Source: an uncultured Gemmata sp.
GTDB taxonomy: Bacteria > Planctomycetota > Planctomycetia > Gemmatales > Gemmataceae
Direction of reading: 5' to 3'
DNA length: 64,000 nt
NCBI GenBank assembly: GCA_937924775.1
Contig: CALDUT010000011.1
Location: 124,001-188,000 of the forward strand
Numbering within the stretch: the stretch's first letter is position 1; the number at the start of each line of letters is the position of its first letter. The notes beneath the pieces are model-generated. The model did not search any database. It was not told the DNA's origin and saw nothing but the letters and a program-made list of their open reading frames with translations. Both the position numbers and the translations under genes were made by a program. Positions 9,708-29,933 of the stretch are shown piece by piece.

Positions 9708-9905
9708 GGCACAAACTCCGGGGAGGACAACCTGACAAGGAAATCCACCTTACGCCAACTCCGCGGGGAAATCAATCGGCCGATCGCGGACCACTTCGGC
9801 TGGGTGAAACCGGGGCCGCGTGCTAAACTATCGTCATCAGCCATTGCGGCAGCCCCGGGAGGGCATTTTCTGCCGCGGCGGCCGACGGATGAGGTCACGA
9901 TTGGC

Positions 9906-10688
9906 GTGGACCGGGACGAAAGCAATTGTGCGGAGAACACGCTGCCGGGGGATTCTGCTCCCCTTGCGGCTTACGCTCCGCTGCGACCTTTGACGGCCTA
10001 TCTGCTGGGCCCGGTGGATTTCGACACCCTCGCGGCCTTCCAACGCCGCCTGGTGTACGAAGTGTCGGGGGATCGCGATCGCGGCGCGGTGATTGTCTGC
10101 GACCATCCAGTGAGCATCACGATTGGCCGCGATGGCAGTGTGGCCCATATTCGCCCCAGTGCTGAACAGTTGGCCCTGCGCGGCTGGCCGGTGCGCTGGG
10201 TGGCCCGAGGCGGGGGAACGATGCTCCATGTCCCTGGGCAGGTGACCTGTTATCCGATCCTGGCGCTGGATGCCTTCCAGCTGACCGCGGGGCGGTTTGT
10301 GAAGGAATTGCTGGCCGTGGCGGTCGATCTGGTGAGCGAGTTCGGGCTGACCGGCATCGCCGACGACCAGTGCCCCGGGGTGATGGTCGCCGGGCGGCGG
10401 CTGGTTCACATCGGCACCGCCATTCGCCGGGGGGTCACCTGCTATGGCCTGATTGTGAATGTCAACCCGGACTTAGCACCGTTTTGGGATGTTCGCTGCG
10501 ATGGTGCGAGCCTTCCCATGACATCGTTGGCCCGCGAAAGCCCCCGGCGTGTCCGCATCACCACGGTGCGGCAGCGGCTGGTCGAATTGCTGGTCGCCCG
10601 CTTTGGTTTCGATCGAATGTCCGTTTTCCATACACTGCCAACATCAGGACCCCAAGCCCGACACCATGCGTTCTCTCACGGTTCTTGA
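9906..10688 (+). CDS. lipB: Octanoyltransferase LipB (divergent active site)
   Basis: About 260 aa from the GTG at 9906; the frame is open back to a GTG at 9804, and a TTG at 9990 is also possible, so the start is unsettled. The core shows ITIGRDGSVAHI, RGGGTMLHVPGQ (canonical RGGxxTxHGPGQ), and IRRGVTCYGLIVNVN followed by FWDVRCDG, which should hold the acyl-accepting Cys. LipB transfers octanoate from ACP to lipoyl domains. Oddly, the usual catalytic Lys position reads Arg (AGRRLVHIG) and the HG before the ALNVN motif reads YG. It overlaps lipA by 23 bp. Confidence 0.8.
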   Translation: MDRDESNCAENTLPGDSAPLAAYAPLRPLTAYLLGPVDFDTLAAFQRRLVYEVSGDRDRGAVIVCDHPVSITIGRDGSVAHIRPSAEQLALRGWPVRWVARGGGTMLHVPGQVTCYPILALDAFQLTAGRFVKELLAVAVDLVSEFGLTGIADDQCPGVMVAGRRLVHIGTAIRRGVTCYGLIVNVNPDLAPFWDVRCDGASLPMTSLARESPRRVRITTVRQRLVELLVARFGFDRMSVFHTLPTSGPQARHHAFSHGS

Positions 10689-22450: not shown

Positions 22451-23935
22451 TCAGGCGGCTCCCAGGATGCGCAGCAGACGCCGCAGATCCCGCCGGCGAC
22501 GGCGCTGGTGAACCGCATGCACCAGGCGGACGGCCAACGGTGTCGTCAACGCCACGCCACTGTCATCCACAGCAAACGCGGTCGCGGGATCGACCACCAC
22601 CACGCCCGCATCGTGCAAACGCGTCAGATACTCCACCAGCAATCCGCGCAGGCGCTGCCGTTGCTTCGCTGTCGCCCAGGTCCACTGTTCCCGCACAGGG
22701 GAACCACGGACGGGCTCATAAAGTACGAACCATTCGGCCCAGCTACAGCCGACCCAGCGTTGCCCGAATGCCAGCAACCGCGGCGCGGCTAGTCCGTAGC
22801 GTTCCAGGTGAAACAAGACCCGTGCCGCGGTCGCTGCCGGCGACCGCCACGGCACCGCCCGCCACCATGCCCGCAGCCGGCCCCATGGGGCGAAAGCACG
22901 ACCCCGTACCAGAATTGCGGGGCGATGGCCCCACCAGAGCCGGGTTTCTCCCGACCGGTTGCGGCCGTTCTCCGGCGGACCATAAAACGGAGGGGCGATC
23001 ACCGGACGCGGCCACTGCGCGGCCACTTCGGGAATGGCACACACGGCTTCCCCCGCCAACCACACCAACCGCTGGGCCGTAGTGGCCGTCGCGGTCGGTA
23101 CCGGCGCCAGCCGTTGGTCGCGAATCGACCGGCGCTGGAGCAGCCGCTGCGCGCGCTGCTGAATTCGCGCCACATCAGAAATTTCACCATAGGCGTGAAG
23201 CACCCGCAGCCGTTGCCGCGGCGACGCGAGTTCCGCGGCCACCGACGCATGCAAGGCGGCGAGGGGTTCGATCCGTTGGGCTTGGGGCACTGTCTTCCGC
23301 TGCGTGGCGGGCCAATCGAGGAATGTGACCGTCAGACTGGCCCGATTCACCCAAACATGCTTGGCGCTCAGCGCAGGGGTGGTGAAACCCGCGGCATGAA
23401 CCGCGGCGAGGGCCTGGCCTAGCTGCGTGGCCAACCGGTAGCGCTCGGCGGAAGACAATTGGTGGTTGGCCAGCAGTTGGCGAAGTTCTACGGCCTGCGG
23501 AACTTCTTCAACCAAAAGAAACGCTCGCCCGCCGGCAGCTCCGAAGGCGGCCCAGCGCGGCGCGGGCAGTTGCTGGGCATGGAGTTGCTGGAGGATTTGC
23601 CCTTCGCGTTCGCAGCGGGACACGGCCCCAAATCCGGCCCACCAGTTGCGGAGCTTCTCCCGCCAGCTGACGACATGCTGCCGCTTCAGGTAGAAGGCGT
23701 GATGGGCGCCGGGTAGCTCGATCCGCACCACATGTCGATCGGGATGCCCGCTGACAATTTCGCCGGCCAGATCGAGAAAGGCGGCGGCCGTGGTCAACCC
23801 CAAGCGGCGGAACAACCCGCTGAACGCCGGATGGACGGTCAGGGTGCCGCCGGGTTCTCGCAGGGCCCAAAGCGGCTGAAACCGCACTTTGGGGGCTGCA
23901 GGCCGCTGGCAGAGCCGGTCGAGGTCAAGCCGCAT
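22451..23935 (-). CDS. Tandem degenerate LPS-kinase-like protein
   Basis: 494 aa from ATG 23935, which overlaps the waaF end by 11 bp. Two WaaP/InaA-like halves can be seen. The first (residues about 40-270) keeps the Lys strand (HAFYLKRQH) and a DFG-like Asp (VTFLDWPATQ), but its catalytic loop reads FTTPALSAKHVWVN with no HRD Asp. The second (about 320-490) has LHDAGVVVVDPATAFAVDD in the catalytic loop, but the following VALTTPLAVRL has no metal-binding Asp. Both halves look inactive or split their residues. The assignment is by eye. It lies beside an intact WaaP-like gene, suggesting a role as regulator or scaffold. Confidence 0.65.
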   Translation of the reverse strand: MRLDLDRLCQRPAAPKVRFQPLWALREPGGTLTVHPAFSGLFRRLGLTTAAAFLDLAGEIVSGHPDRHVVRIELPGAHHAFYLKRQHVVSWREKLRNWWAGFGAVSRCEREGQILQQLHAQQLPAPRWAAFGAAGGRAFLLVEEVPQAVELRQLLANHQLSSAERYRLATQLGQALAAVHAAGFTTPALSAKHVWVNRASLTVTFLDWPATQRKTVPQAQRIEPLAALHASVAAELASPRQRLRVLHAYGEISDVARIQQRAQRLLQRRSIRDQRLAPVPTATATTAQRLVWLAGEAVCAIPEVAAQWPRPVIAPPFYGPPENGRNRSGETRLWWGHRPAILVRGRAFAPWGRLRAWWRAVPWRSPAATAARVLFHLERYGLAAPRLLAFGQRWVGCSWAEWFVLYEPVRGSPVREQWTWATAKQRQRLRGLLVEYLTRLHDAGVVVVDPATAFAVDDSGVALTTPLAVRLVHAVHQRRRRRDLRRLLRILGAA

Positions 23936-24986
23936 GGGGCACCTCGCATCGCCCGGCCAACAGCCGCTGGGCGGCGGCATACACTTCCCCCGGCGTCAGT
24001 TCGCGCATGCAGCGGTGGTGGCCTTCGGGGCAGCGTCGCTGTTGGCATGGCCCGCACGGCAGGCGTTTTTGCAGTTGTATTTCCTGGGCGAAGTAGGTGT
24101 GCGTCCAGGCGATATGGGTGGGGCCAAAGAGCGACACCACCGGACGGTTGAACGCCGCGGCCAAGTGACGCGGGCCGCTATCGGTGGTGACAAGCAGATC
24201 GCAGCGTCGAACGATGGCTTTGGTCAAACCCAACGACAGCGGCTCCTCACTGAGGGGAAAGACATGCAGGCTGCGGCTGGCGTCGGCAATGTCGCGAGCC
24301 AGGGCTCGTTCCGCCGGCCCGCAAAGAACGACGATGCCACACTCCAGGCGCGTGGTGAGCAGGCGGGCCAATTGGGCGAAGTGATCGATGCTCCAATGTT
24401 TCGCTGCCCCGAAGGCCGCTCCGGGGTTGAAGGCGACCACCCGCGGGTAGCGCGCCAACAGGAATCGCTGCCAGACCCTATCGGCTGCGGCTTCGTCGGC
24501 GGGGGTGGTGAACAGTTCCAGGCGGTGGCCGGGGTCGGCGGTGCCCAAGGTGGTCGCCAGTCGGTTGTAGTCGTCGATGATCGGAGTAGGGACGAAGCGG
24601 CCGCGCGCGTCGGTTGCGGGCTGGAGGCGGTCGGTCAGGAGCCAGCCGCGGCCATAACGGGCAAATCCAATGCGGCGGCGGGCCCCTCCGAGGTAGGCGA
24701 TGAGGGCGGTGCGGAAAGAATTGGGGAAAAGCAGGGCAGCATCGACCGGTTTGGCACGCAAAGTGCTCACAACAGCCCGCCACCGTTGCTCCCGGGGGCC
24801 GCGTTTGTCAGCGAGAATTGTTTCCGCCAACCACGGGCTGCCGGTCAGCACGTCCGCGACATAGGGCTTGCACACCGCGACCAATTCAGCTTGCGGGAAC
24901 GTGTTGTACACCGCCCGCAACGCCGGCGTGGCCATCACCACGTCGCCCACCCAGTTGGGCAAAAACAGGGCTATGCGTCTCATCAT
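23925..24986 (-). CDS. waaF: ADP-heptose:LPS heptosyltransferase II
   Basis: 353 aa GT9 enzyme. It begins MMRRIALFLPNWVGDVVMAT, the N-W-x-G-D-x-x-M-A-T acceptor motif of WaaF. It continues with RRIGFARYGRGWLLTDRL and FNPGAAFGAAKHWSIDHFAQ, the ADP-heptose site. Near the end, LVTTDSGPRHLAAAFNRPVVSLFGPTHIAWTHTY (GPT motif) matches the family in full. It adds the second heptose of the LPS inner core at the cytoplasmic face. Its start overlaps the stop of hldE (ATGATG), so the pair is co-translated. Confidence 0.95.
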   Translation of the reverse strand: MMRRIALFLPNWVGDVVMATPALRAVYNTFPQAELVAVCKPYVADVLTGSPWLAETILADKRGPREQRWRAVVSTLRAKPVDAALLFPNSFRTALIAYLGGARRRIGFARYGRGWLLTDRLQPATDARGRFVPTPIIDDYNRLATTLGTADPGHRLELFTTPADEAAADRVWQRFLLARYPRVVAFNPGAAFGAAKHWSIDHFAQLARLLTTRLECGIVVLCGPAERALARDIADASRSLHVFPLSEEPLSLGLTKAIVRRCDLLVTTDSGPRHLAAAFNRPVVSLFGPTHIAWTHTYFAQEIQLQKRLPCGPCQQRRCPEGHHRCMRELTPGEVYAAAQRLLAGRCEVPHAA

Positions 24987-26576: not shown

Positions 26577-27683
26577 TCAGCTGACAGTATCCTCCGGGTG
26601 TTCGTGCGGGTGTTCGTGCGGATGTTCGTGCCCGCACTCCTGTAGCGGCCTCTCCAACACGGCCGTCAGCGCGTCCTCGCCAGTGCGGACATGCAAACCG
26701 ATCCGCAGAGCCCACAGGGGGCGATCCGCCAACGCGTCCAGCCGCAACTTCACCCAATCTTTTTGCGTCGTGAGAATGGCGGTGTTGGGCGGAAGTGACG
26801 CCGCCCACTGGGTCAAATCGTCGACATCCGCACGACTGTAGCGGTGATGATCGGGGAAACGCCGCCAGGCCACGACCGTGGCTCCCAGTCCCTCTAACGT
26901 AGCTTGGAATGCTGCCGGATGGCCGATGCCACAGAAGGCGGCCACAGTTTTCCCAGCCAGCCACGCGGGCGGTTGTTCGGCCCCACCACGGCTGATCAGC
27001 GCCAGCGGCCGGTGTTCGGTGGTGGCGATGGGGGTTTGTGGCCAGCGCGATTGCAGCCAGGCCCGGAGCATCTCCACGGTGGCAGCGGATGCCTGATCGC
27101 AGCGGGTCAGGATGAACGCCGAAGCCCGTTTCAGGCTGCTGACCGGTTCTCGCAAAGTTCCTCGGGGAAACAAAAAATCCCGCGGGGGGGGTCGGGTGGC
27201 ATCGATGAGCACCAAGTCGATGTCGCGATGCAAACGGCGGTGTTGGAAACCATCGTCGAGGATAAGCAATTCGCTTTCGAGTTCCTCTACGGCGGCTTCG
27301 GCGGCCGCGACGCGGTCGGGGTTTTGTAAATGCGGCACGTCGGGCAGGTTGTCTTCGAGGACCATGGCTTCGTCGTTGCGTCCGTTGTCGGCTCGGTAAC
27401 CGCGGCTGAGGATGGCCACTTGCCGTTCGCGCCGGCGGTAGAAACGGGCCACCCATTCCACACACGGCGTTTTGCCGGTACCGCCCAGACTCAAATTGCC
27501 GACACTCACCACCGGGACTAAGGCGGTATGAATCCGCTTCCACCGGCGATCGTAGAGGACATTGCGCAACCACACACCGAGGGCATAAGGTCCACAGCCC
27601 AGCCACAAGGCGGCTCGGATCAGAGTGGCTCCTAGTCCGCGGCGCTGGCCGGTGACGATCGCATACCACGTTGCAGCGTTAAT
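26577..27683 (-). CDS. lpxK: Tetraacyldisaccharide 4'-kinase (lipid A), probable ATT start, His-rich tail
   Basis: 368 aa if started at ATT 27683-27681. LpxK phosphorylates the 4' position of the lipid A disaccharide at the inner membrane. The P-loop is VGNLSLGGTGKTPCVEW, and ELLILDDGFQHRRLHRDIDL is the second LpxK signature. The first ATG/GTG/TTG-type codon in frame is a TTG at 27608, but the 25 codons before it encode TWYAIVTGQRRGLGATLIRA, the conserved LpxK N-terminus. A perfect AGGAGG (27694-27689) sits 5 nt ahead of ATT, so ATT is the likely start. The C-terminus ends with three HEHP-type repeats, a possible metal-binding tail. Confidence 0.85.
   Translation of the reverse strand: MNAATWYAIVTGQRRGLGATLIRAALWLGCGPYALGVWLRNVLYDRRWKRIHTALVPVVSVGNLSLGGTGKTPCVEWVARFYRRRERQVAILSRGYRADNGRNDEAMVLEDNLPDVPHLQNPDRVAAAEAAVEELESELLILDDGFQHRRLHRDIDLVLIDATRPPPRDFLFPRGTLREPVSSLKRASAFILTRCDQASAATVEMLRAWLQSRWPQTPIATTEHRPLALISRGGAEQPPAWLAGKTVAAFCGIGHPAAFQATLEGLGATVVAWRRFPDHHRYSRADVDDLTQWAASLPPNTAILTTQKDWVKLRLDALADRPLWALRIGLHVRTGEDALTAVLERPLQECGHEHPHEHPHEHPEDTVS
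26597..26632 (-). repeat. Three 12-bp tandem repeats encoding HEHP at the LpxK C-terminus
   Basis: On the plus strand the unit is GGTGTTCGTGCG, present three times with one substitution in the third copy (GATGTTCGTGCC). Read on the minus strand it gives the His-Glu-His-Pro tail of LpxK. Its length may vary between strains by slippage. Confidence 0.85.
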
Positions 27684-27688
27684 AGCGT

Positions 27689-27694
27689 CCTCCT
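27689..27694 (-). promoter_or_regulatory. Perfect Shine-Dalgarno AGGAGG deciding the lpxK start
   Basis: On the minus strand AGGAGG is followed by ACGCT and then ATT. The 5-nt spacing is normal for initiation, and no ATG, GTG or TTG lies at a suitable distance in the lpxK frame. This is the main evidence for initiation at ATT. Confidence 0.7.
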
Positions 27695-27805
27695 GGCAGT
27701 GTGGGCGGCGAACTGTAACAAGCCGATGACGCCTCTGTCAACCGGAAGCCGCGGCAGTTGCGCGGAGGCCGGGCGTGTGGGTGCGGGGGCGGATCACCGG
27801 CCCTC

Positions 27806-27863
27806 TTTTTTTTTCTTTTTTTTGTCGGTTGGCATTTGACATCGCAAAATAATTGAACATAAT
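27806..27863 (+). promoter_or_regulatory. Sigma-70-type promoter preceded by a T9-C-T8 tract
   Basis: TTGACA at 27836-27841 and CATAAT at 27858-27863 are separated by 16 nt, matching the consensus in 11 of 12 positions. A run of nine T, one C and eight T (27806-27823) lies just upstream and could bend DNA or act like an UP element. The site would drive the hypothetical gene at 27941. It is the clearest consensus promoter found in the window. Confidence 0.6.
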
Positions 27864-27940: not shown

Positions 27941-28663
27941 ATGGTGGCGACCACTTCTCGCAACGGCGTGCTGGAAGTTCTTACCGACGATCTTTTAGCG
28001 GAAATCGCCGAAGCCCGGGTGCGTGGGCAACCCTGGGAGTCGATCGCGGCTCAACATCAGTGGGATGCGGCCGAGCTGCGGGCCGCTCTGCGGCGAAGCC
28101 CGCATTTTTCCGACCATCTGGCCACCGCCCACCGCGAGTTGTTGCTGGAAGTGGAAACCGAACTGCTGCAGACCTTGCGGCAGCATCTGCACAGCGACGA
28201 TGCCGCGCAGGCTTTGAAGGCGGCGGACACTATGGCGAAGTATTTGACGGCCCGGCGGCGGGACGAAACCCGCTTGGAGCTGGCCGAGCAGAAAGCCACG
28301 GCGTCGCCGGGTGCGGCCGCTGCGGCCTCCAAGGGGCCGCCGACCTCCGGCTGGACGCCGGACGAGCAGGCGCATTACGAGGCCGTCTTTCGTCGCAACG
28401 AACGGCTCCGGGCCGAACAAGTCGCCCGCGAGAAGGCCACAGTCTATTTGTGGGGGGGCTGTCACAAGTTGAAGGATGTACCCCCCGACGAAACCGATAC
28501 GCCCCTGCTTTTGCTGAAGGAAACCCTGCCAGATCGCGGGGATATTTATTGGGCGGTCACCAATCCTTTGCCGGTGGATGACTTCACCAATGGTCCGTTT
28601 TTGGAACCACCGGGGTTTCGCCCTTGCACCAGCCCCCCGATCAGCCACGGCAGTGCGCCCTAA
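27941..28663 (+). CDS. Hypothetical protein with helical N-terminal region
   Basis: 240 aa, no family recognised. The first ~115 residues are predicted helical (DDLLAEIAEARVRGQPWESI followed by AAQHQWDAAELRAAL, resembling a helix-turn-helix), then QALKAADTMAKYLTARRRDE. An Ala/Pro-rich linker precedes a second helical piece and a C-terminal part with tryptophans and YLWGGCHKLKDVPPDE. A DNA-binding role is possible from the N-terminus alone but unproven. It is transcribed from the promoter at 27836-27863 and diverges from lpxK. Confidence 0.65.
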   Translation: MVATTSRNGVLEVLTDDLLAEIAEARVRGQPWESIAAQHQWDAAELRAALRRSPHFSDHLATAHRELLLEVETELLQTLRQHLHSDDAAQALKAADTMAKYLTARRRDETRLELAEQKATASPGAAAAASKGPPTSGWTPDEQAHYEAVFRRNERLRAEQVAREKATVYLWGGCHKLKDVPPDETDTPLLLLKETLPDRGDIYWAVTNPLPVDDFTNGPFLEPPGFRPCTSPPISHGSAP

Positions 28664-28952: not shown

Positions 28953-29933
28953 ATGCCAAAAACGTGTCTCTCCCGACGAGATGGCTTCACACTCATCGAA
29001 TTATTGGTGGTGATTGCCATCATAGCCATTCTGATTGGTCTACTGCTGCCAGCCATTCAGAAAGTGCGGGAAGCTGCAGCACGCATGAGCTGTCAAAACA
29101 AGATGAAACAATTAGGCTTGGCGTTGCACAACTTCCATGACGCCAACGGTCGTCTGCCTCCGGGCGCCGAGCAGGATGTACTGCCGCGCGGAGCCATTGC
29201 CGGTCCGCCGTGGATTCGCGGAACCAGCTGGATTGTGTACATACTGCCACAAATTGAGCAGGAAGCGTTGTTCCGTTTGTATGATTTCACGCTGCCCTAT
29301 ACCGGCAATGCGGCCATTGGCTTGAACGTGGTACCGACGCTTTACTGCCCCTCGGGGCCACAGCCTACGCGTTACCTCGATCCCAACGCCAACGTGGCCA
29401 ACAACGTCACCACGCACTATTACGGCGTGATGGGGCCTGGCGACCTGACCGACAACGCTCCTAACGTTGTGGGCGGGCGAACGTTCATCTATCGGGTCGG
29501 TGAAGGTGCTAACAACTCGGCTTGGTCTGGCCACGGCATGCTCACTCAATACCGCGACAGCCCTGGCAGCATCAGCACACGGCGATTGGTGCGCTTCACC
29601 GATGTGACGGATGGTCTGACCAATACGCTGATGCTGGCGGAACGCTCGGTGTTTATGCCCAACGGTTACCAATTCAACCACGACTACCGCTCGTGGATTC
29701 GCGGCAACAACGGCGGCAGCGGAGCCACCAAGAACGTCACCTATCCCATCAACTCGACGTTCTACAATGGTTCCAACAACTTCAATCACATCAGCTTTGG
29801 TAGTAATCACAGTGGTGGGTGCAACTTTACGCTCGGTGATGGCAGCGTGCGGTTCATCAACCAAAGCATTGACCTGGCGATCTACAAAGCCGCGGCCAGC
29901 ATGGATTGCGGTGAAGTCGCCCCCTTGAACTGA
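28953..29933 (+). CDS. DUF1559 protein with type II/IV prepilin-like N-terminus
   Basis: 326 aa. RRDGFTLIELLVVIAIIAIL is a prepilin cleavage and methylation motif (G before F, Glu at +5) followed by one transmembrane helix. The DUF1559 body ends with the H-x9-DG motif, seen here as HSGGCNFTLGDGSVRFINQ. These proteins are expanded by the dozen in Planctomycetes and are thought to be pseudopilins or surface fibre components of unknown function. It is followed by a hairpin and a small lipoprotein, the usual partner arrangement. Codon use is plainly more AT-rich than the neighbouring genes. Confidence 0.95.
   Translation: MPKTCLSRRDGFTLIELLVVIAIIAILIGLLLPAIQKVREAAARMSCQNKMKQLGLALHNFHDANGRLPPGAEQDVLPRGAIAGPPWIRGTSWIVYILPQIEQEALFRLYDFTLPYTGNAAIGLNVVPTLYCPSGPQPTRYLDPNANVANNVTTHYYGVMGPGDLTDNAPNVVGGRTFIYRVGEGANNSAWSGHGMLTQYRDSPGSISTRRLVRFTDVTDGLTNTLMLAERSVFMPNGYQFNHDYRSWIRGNNGGSGATKNVTYPINSTFYNGSNNFNHISFGSNHSGGCNFTLGDGSVRFINQSIDLAIYKAAASMDCGEVAPLN

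Follow-up and report, generated by a model that had tools for sequence, protein, structure and literature searches.

Introduction

Binns and Masters are said to have found in 2002 that the chromosomal AUU start codon of Escherichia coli pcnB limits its translation. The initiator anticodon nearly matches AUU, and IF3 destabilises complexes of this kind; infC and Streptomyces sigR have both been reported to be under IF3 control of this sort (PMC5472188). In the excerpts of that source used here, infC starts at AUU in E. coli and at AUC in Streptomyces, sigR combines a GUC start with an extended Shine-Dalgarno (SD) sequence that is conserved within the genus, repression of sigR by IF3 is established by experiment, and very few bacterial non-canonical start codons are described as characterized (PMC5472188). 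In Staphylococcus aureus, cvfC1 (AUU) and ccpN (AUA) were mapped by ribosome profiling; cvfC1 is the first gene of its operon, has a strong extended SD and keeps its odd start among staphylococci (PMC13009471). Excerpts of the same paper put expression from AUU and AUA starts behind extended SDs at about a tenth of the AUG level in one medium, and that from the AUA of ccpN at up to 30% of it in another (PMC13009471). An AUU start is also reported for pncA (BBE22) of Borrelia burgdorferi, whose protein databases still list as 24 residues shorter (PMC13398362, excerpt).

The lpxK gene of a Gemmata genome that we describe here can be set beside these systems. Like infC, it would have a non-canonical start that is discriminated by IF3, but its product is a lipid A enzyme rather than the factor itself, and it hence has no feedback loop of its own. 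It shares AUU with pcnB, a gene of other function in another phylum, and with sigR it has in common an odd start and an extended SD, both conserved within a genus, although its codon is AUU instead of GUC and is known from sequence. It differs from cvfC1 and ccpN, with their ribosome profiling, also in its pathway, and from pncA, whose start is experimentally supported in one species.

In E. coli, overexpression of LpxK raises LpxC, and LpxK is reported to be rate-limiting once pathway regulation is counted (PMC4412817, excerpt), while too little LpxK in Acinetobacter leads to the accumulation of toxic intermediates (PMC5837183, excerpt). Because its level has these effects, LpxK is a sensible target of control. 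An excerpt of PMC8567305 states that one cell fraction of another planctomycete, Tuwongella immobilis, was found to contain LpxK protein. Among the matches listed in our literature search, there was no report of a non-canonical start for lpxK or for any planctomycete gene.

Results

The lpxK frame and its putative start

The window, by which we mean the whole stretch of 64,000 nucleotides that was analysed, contains the only lpxK match of a genome of 4.79 Mb (27 contigs, 97% complete). The product was identified by TIGR00682 (184.8 bits; cut-off 91.95) and PF02606 (254.7 bits; cut-off 27). The features of the locus, in window coordinates, are:

27736..27741, minus strand: putative -35 box TTGACA of the lpxK promoter, conserved in 16/16 genus loci
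27712..27717, minus strand: putative -10 box TACAGT with TG ahead of it (TTGACA-18-TACAGT, 10/12 consensus matches)
27689..27694, minus strand: Shine-Dalgarno AGGAGG, 5 nt ahead of the ATT (spacer ACGCT, 27688-27684)
27681..27683, minus strand: predicted AUU initiation codon of lpxK, marked by codon conservation across relatives
26577..27683, minus strand: lpxK, tetraacyldisaccharide 4'-kinase, 368 codons counted from the ATT; sole match in the genome
24983..26473, minus strand: hldE-like bifunctional heptose kinase/adenylyltransferase, next downstream of lpxK; ATG 26473 is our choice of start
23925..24986, minus strand: waaF-like heptosyltransferase II with an ATG start, downstream of lpxK

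Read along the minus strand, the order is TTGACA-18-TACAGT...CCAGGAGGACGCT ATT AAC GCT GCA ACG TGG TAT GCG..., after the ATT the product reads INAATWYAIVTGQRRGLGATLIRAALWLG..., and the stop ends at 26577. Upstream of the ATT the frame is open for 18 codons and then meets a stop; from that stop to the TTG at 27608, which is codon 26, the lpxK frame contains no ATG, GTG or TTG. This reading confirmed the preliminary description of the locus, in which AGGAGG precedes by 5 nt an ATT (27683-27681) that opens lpxK and TTG 27608 is the first usual start. The same description had called the residues before the TTG the conserved N-terminus of LpxK, which held within Gemmataceae, where most rows match from residues 1-9, but not for general models: the PF02606 match begins at LpxK residue 27 (profile position 6), and two solved LpxK sequences align only from query residues 36-37. 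The relatives that align from query residues 1-9 include many Gemmataceae and some other planctomycetes.

Codon 1 of lpxK among relatives

A family search found lpxK in 92 of 95 genomes. The same-genus set comprised 19 genomes, including our own, 16 of which had a readable lpxK N-terminus; left out were G014 and G020, where a contig ends and the match starts only within the gene, and G025, which had no match. Codon 1 was ATT in 11 and ATC in one (L003) of a group of 12 of these loci, an outcome in favour of the preliminary description, which had proposed aligning the N-termini of relatives. In the remaining four loci (L009, L010, L014 and L017), codon 2 is GTG and GAGG precedes it by five bases; where GTG occupies codon 2, codon 1 varies (ATT, ATC, CCC, ACC).

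In a maximum-likelihood tree of 36 LpxK rows, taken from the 69 loci with an N-terminus, the twelve ATT/ATC loci formed one clade, with support (89/83) below the strict mark. Its sister clade (95/92) united the four GTG loci of the genus with six loci of another genus (L018-L023), in which GTG lies at codon 1, -2 or -3. In some other genera codon 1 itself is ATG or GTG; it is ATG in Limnoglobus roseus (L032), for instance, and likewise in locus L116 of G051, and relatives of this kind keep similar residues downstream of that codon. Within codons -8 to +6, 9/12 clade members lack a usual start, compared with 5/57 other family loci (L027, L129, L137, L144 and L148); outside the clade an ATG, GTG or TTG thus mostly lies near the position of the ATT, with 52/57 loci having one in this interval. 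Codon 1 is the sole place in codons -8 to +8 with a near-start codon (ATT/ATC) in 12/12 clade loci. One of the outside loci, L129 (G032, another genus), has ATC at lpxK codon 1 and no usual start within codons -8 to +6, and may represent a second, independent origin of a near-start codon.

A homologue with an ATG elsewhere had been named as the case against the ATT, and such codons were encountered in part, as three of the 12 clade members have a usual codon two or five codons upstream. In L007 an ATG lies two codons before the ATT, but it follows directly on GGAG, at too short a spacing. A GTG precedes the ATT by five codons in L012 and L016, and a CTG precedes it by two codons in L004. Translation could start elsewhere in these four loci. 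In the sister species (L002), TAG closes the frame upstream, leaving three codons between TAG and ATT, and the next usual codon is a GTG at 28. A start upstream of the ATT was excluded in L002 by this TAG and in L001 by the lack of a usual codon, and is less likely elsewhere from the position of the promoter.

We considered and rejected an assembly error at the ATT. The concern about a sequencing slip, also raised earlier, is unlikely to apply because independent genomes show the same codon: an identical ATT is found in the 1-3-contig assemblies G010, G011, G012 and G026, two of them single-contig.

Promoter, leader and Shine-Dalgarno

A 501-base region contained two promoter-like sites, one per strand, against a mean of 0.2 in shuffles. 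TTGACA-18-TANANT is found in 16/16 genus loci, and the distance from the end of TANANT to codon 1 is 26-35 nt in the 12 clade loci and 22-34 nt in the other four. From the boxes we infer a transcription start near 27706-27702; with a start 6-8 nt beyond the boxes, the leader would therefore be about 18-29 nt in the twelve. The clade SD has 5-6 bases in 11/12 loci and 4 bases in the twelfth, at a spacing of 5-10, so that the AGGAGG of the preliminary description recurs in relatives as a strong SD, but as the full hexamer in our own genome only.

The combined pattern TTGACA-18-TANANT-(5-30)-GGAG-(4-12)-ATT occurred at 10 places in the 19 genus genomes, some of which are incomplete, and all 10 were lpxK; a reversed-pattern control occurred at one place in the 19 genomes. 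The clade loci missed were L003, with its ATC, and L016, which has only GAGG. The same promoter-SD pattern with ATG for ATT (spacing 4-10) was not found in our own genome. What the DNA shows directly is the AUU with its SD and promoter-like boxes, the conservation of these elements and, in our own genome, the absence of any other usual start near the N-terminus.

The second promoter-like site is divergent and near consensus (TTGACA-16-CATAAT, 11/12; window 27836-27863, plus strand) and lies upstream of a frame at 27941-28663, whose 240-residue product had no Pfam or NCBIfam match at E 0.001. Also on the plus strand, window 28953-29933 encodes a protein with a prepilin-like N-terminus, a kind common in planctomycetes.

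Shine-Dalgarno and ATT compared with chance

We scanned 424 kb of our own genome (the window and 360 kb), covering 247 genes chosen by codon usage, and, among in-frame codons lying 9 or more codons ahead of the first usual start, counted those with an SD of at least 5 bases at 4-10 nt. Such an SD preceded 1 of 30 ATT codons and 33 of 2122 codons of all kinds. By themselves, an SD and an ATT are not beyond chance; the ATT of lpxK goes beyond chance because it is conserved in relatives. Among ATT, ATC, ATA and CTG codons, the matches with an SD of at least 5 bases were lpxK (ATT), infC (ATC) and one CTG, and ACG and AAG gave one match each. Under a looser 4-base rule, the scan returned 5 ATT, 3 ATC and 5 CTG matches. 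The idea that ATT starts are frequent in this genome was rejected, with lpxK as the single ATT match at an SD of at least 5 bases in the 424 kb scanned. Of the 247 sampled genes, 34 had an SD of 5-6 bases ahead of a usual start that lay no more than 30 codons from the first.

We also observed a CTG at window 9732 (plus strand) after GGAGG, 24 codons ahead of the GTG of the frame 9804-10688, which we take from its sequence to be LipB-like. This CTG was taken as chance.

Selection on codon 1

In all 66 pairs of the 12 clade loci, positions 1 and 2 of codon 1 showed zero differences. The six codons before it differ at 0.52-0.64 per position in these pairs, and positions further upstream at 0.67-0.75. 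For codons 6-16 the values are 0.194, 0.058 and 0.409 at positions 1, 2 and 3, a constrained coding pattern which argues that residues upstream of the TTG are translated, and codons 17-25 are likewise coding-constrained, with the third position most variable.

The third base of codon 1 is itself unusual. In the bodies of the 12 clade lpxK genes, isoleucine is encoded by 82 ATC, 28 ATT and 2 ATA codons. In 35 columns the 12 loci share an invariant residue (D, N, H, Y, F, C or I); of these columns, codon 1 alone has a T-ending codon in 11/12, the next highest reaching 7/12. A third base of A or T in at least 11/12 loci is seen in just two of the 349 gap-free columns, codon 1 (ATT) and one GAA. 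As the 12 rows share kinship, these counts are not independent trials. The weakness of the lpxK start is likely to be under selection, and the keeping of ATT across a dozen species suggests that the cell deliberately holds back the amount of LpxK.

infC and other genes of the lineage

The infC loci of the genus are:

L151 (G000:C11, about 33344) and L152-L165: infC, the inferred start reading IPPFDRSNAPRGP...

In 15/15 genus loci with an N-terminus, infC, which encodes IF3, has ATC at the inferred start, with GGAG 7-8 nt before it. Nine of the 15, including that of G000, have no usual codon between the stop and the conserved domain, and the other six have one further upstream in frame. These starts point to IF3 autocontrol through a near-start codon, which probably operates in this lineage. 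The pcnB-like gene of our own genome starts with ATG, and lpxB and waaA have ATG at the place where we presume their starts to lie. The LpxC match in our own genome fell below its family cut-off.

Discussion

We conclude that translation of lpxK very probably starts at AUU, and we consider it probable that this start is kept weak and is held down by IF3, as in infC and Streptomyces sigR. The traits that lpxK shares with genes discriminated by IF3 are the lack of a usable usual start at the N-terminus (our own genome and 9/12 loci, codons -8 to +6), a conserved odd codon and a strong SD. Its AUU would thereby join a known kind of non-canonical start (infC, pcnB, sigR), and control of lpxK at initiation, which the preliminary description had raised, is plausible given these precedents in other genes.

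In the model that we propose, the gene's own promoter would yield an lpxK messenger whose leader spans some 18-29 nt and on which a strong SD would place the AUU, giving a 368-residue LpxK. The initiator tRNA would pair imperfectly with AUU, so that IF3 would reject most initiation complexes there; LpxK would stay low and would rise as IF3 activity falls. The transcription start, actual initiation at AUU, its low efficiency and its response to IF3 are all parts of this model that we infer. Whether the level of IF3 regulates lpxK we regard as evenly balanced. As infC appears to start at AUC in this genus, one factor would act on both lpxK and infC, and LpxK would move in step with IF3.

A start at TTG 27608, or at other downstream usual codons in the relatives, would make the preceding codons a leader. 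No usual start codon precedes this TTG in the frame, ATG is available at codon 20 in 5/12 clade loci (L005, L006, L008, L011 and L012) and GTG at codon 10 in 2/12 (L015 and L016), and Pfam and the solved structures begin only at residues 27 and 36-37. These downstream codons do not line up, however: TTG occupies codon 26 in 4/12 clade loci, and L003 has no usual start codon through codon 32. With coding constraint in codons 6-16 and 17-25 and similar residues retained by relatives that have ATG or GTG at codon 1, we rejected the TTG start, which is neither conserved nor free of coding constraint upstream, and consider any start of this type scarcely credible. The ATT could instead be a neutral relic, an ancestral change that was tolerated and has not yet been altered, and its single origin in the tree fits this account. 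Against it, the coding part differs at third positions in 41-53% of pairs and the flanks are almost saturated, yet the ATT stays, against the codon preference of these genes and although ATG is one base change away; we therefore think a relic very unlikely.

If AUU is the real start, it might still be a fixed volume setting, in which a strong promoter and SD offset the weak codon, with no meaningful response to IF3. The strong SD and near-consensus promoter boxes that accompany the codon agree with this, as does the AUU of S. aureus cvfC1, reported in excerpts of PMC13009471 to give about 10% of AUG expression in one medium, with no medium effect. On the other side, infC of this genus apparently uses a near-start codon as well, and discrimination by IF3 against such codons is reported in E. 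coli and Streptomyces (PMC5472188, excerpt). Some sensitivity to IF3 is therefore hard to avoid, and we hold a fixed setting to be rather unlikely. We thus favour an AUU start that is weak and probably restrained by IF3.

The N-terminus of LpxK may be misannotated across the ATT clade, and gene callers may lose the 25 residues before the TTG, as the preliminary description supposed. Planctomycetes have unusual membranes, and a start codon that restricts LpxK would give them a means of control. We suggest, tentatively and with somewhat more doubt than belief, that in the Gemmata lineage a small IF3 regulon comprises lpxK and infC, so that the 4'-phosphorylation step of lipid A is set by how much of an initiation factor is present. 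If so, outer-membrane synthesis would be coupled, at the start codon itself, to the condition of the translation machinery, without a regulator protein or a riboswitch.
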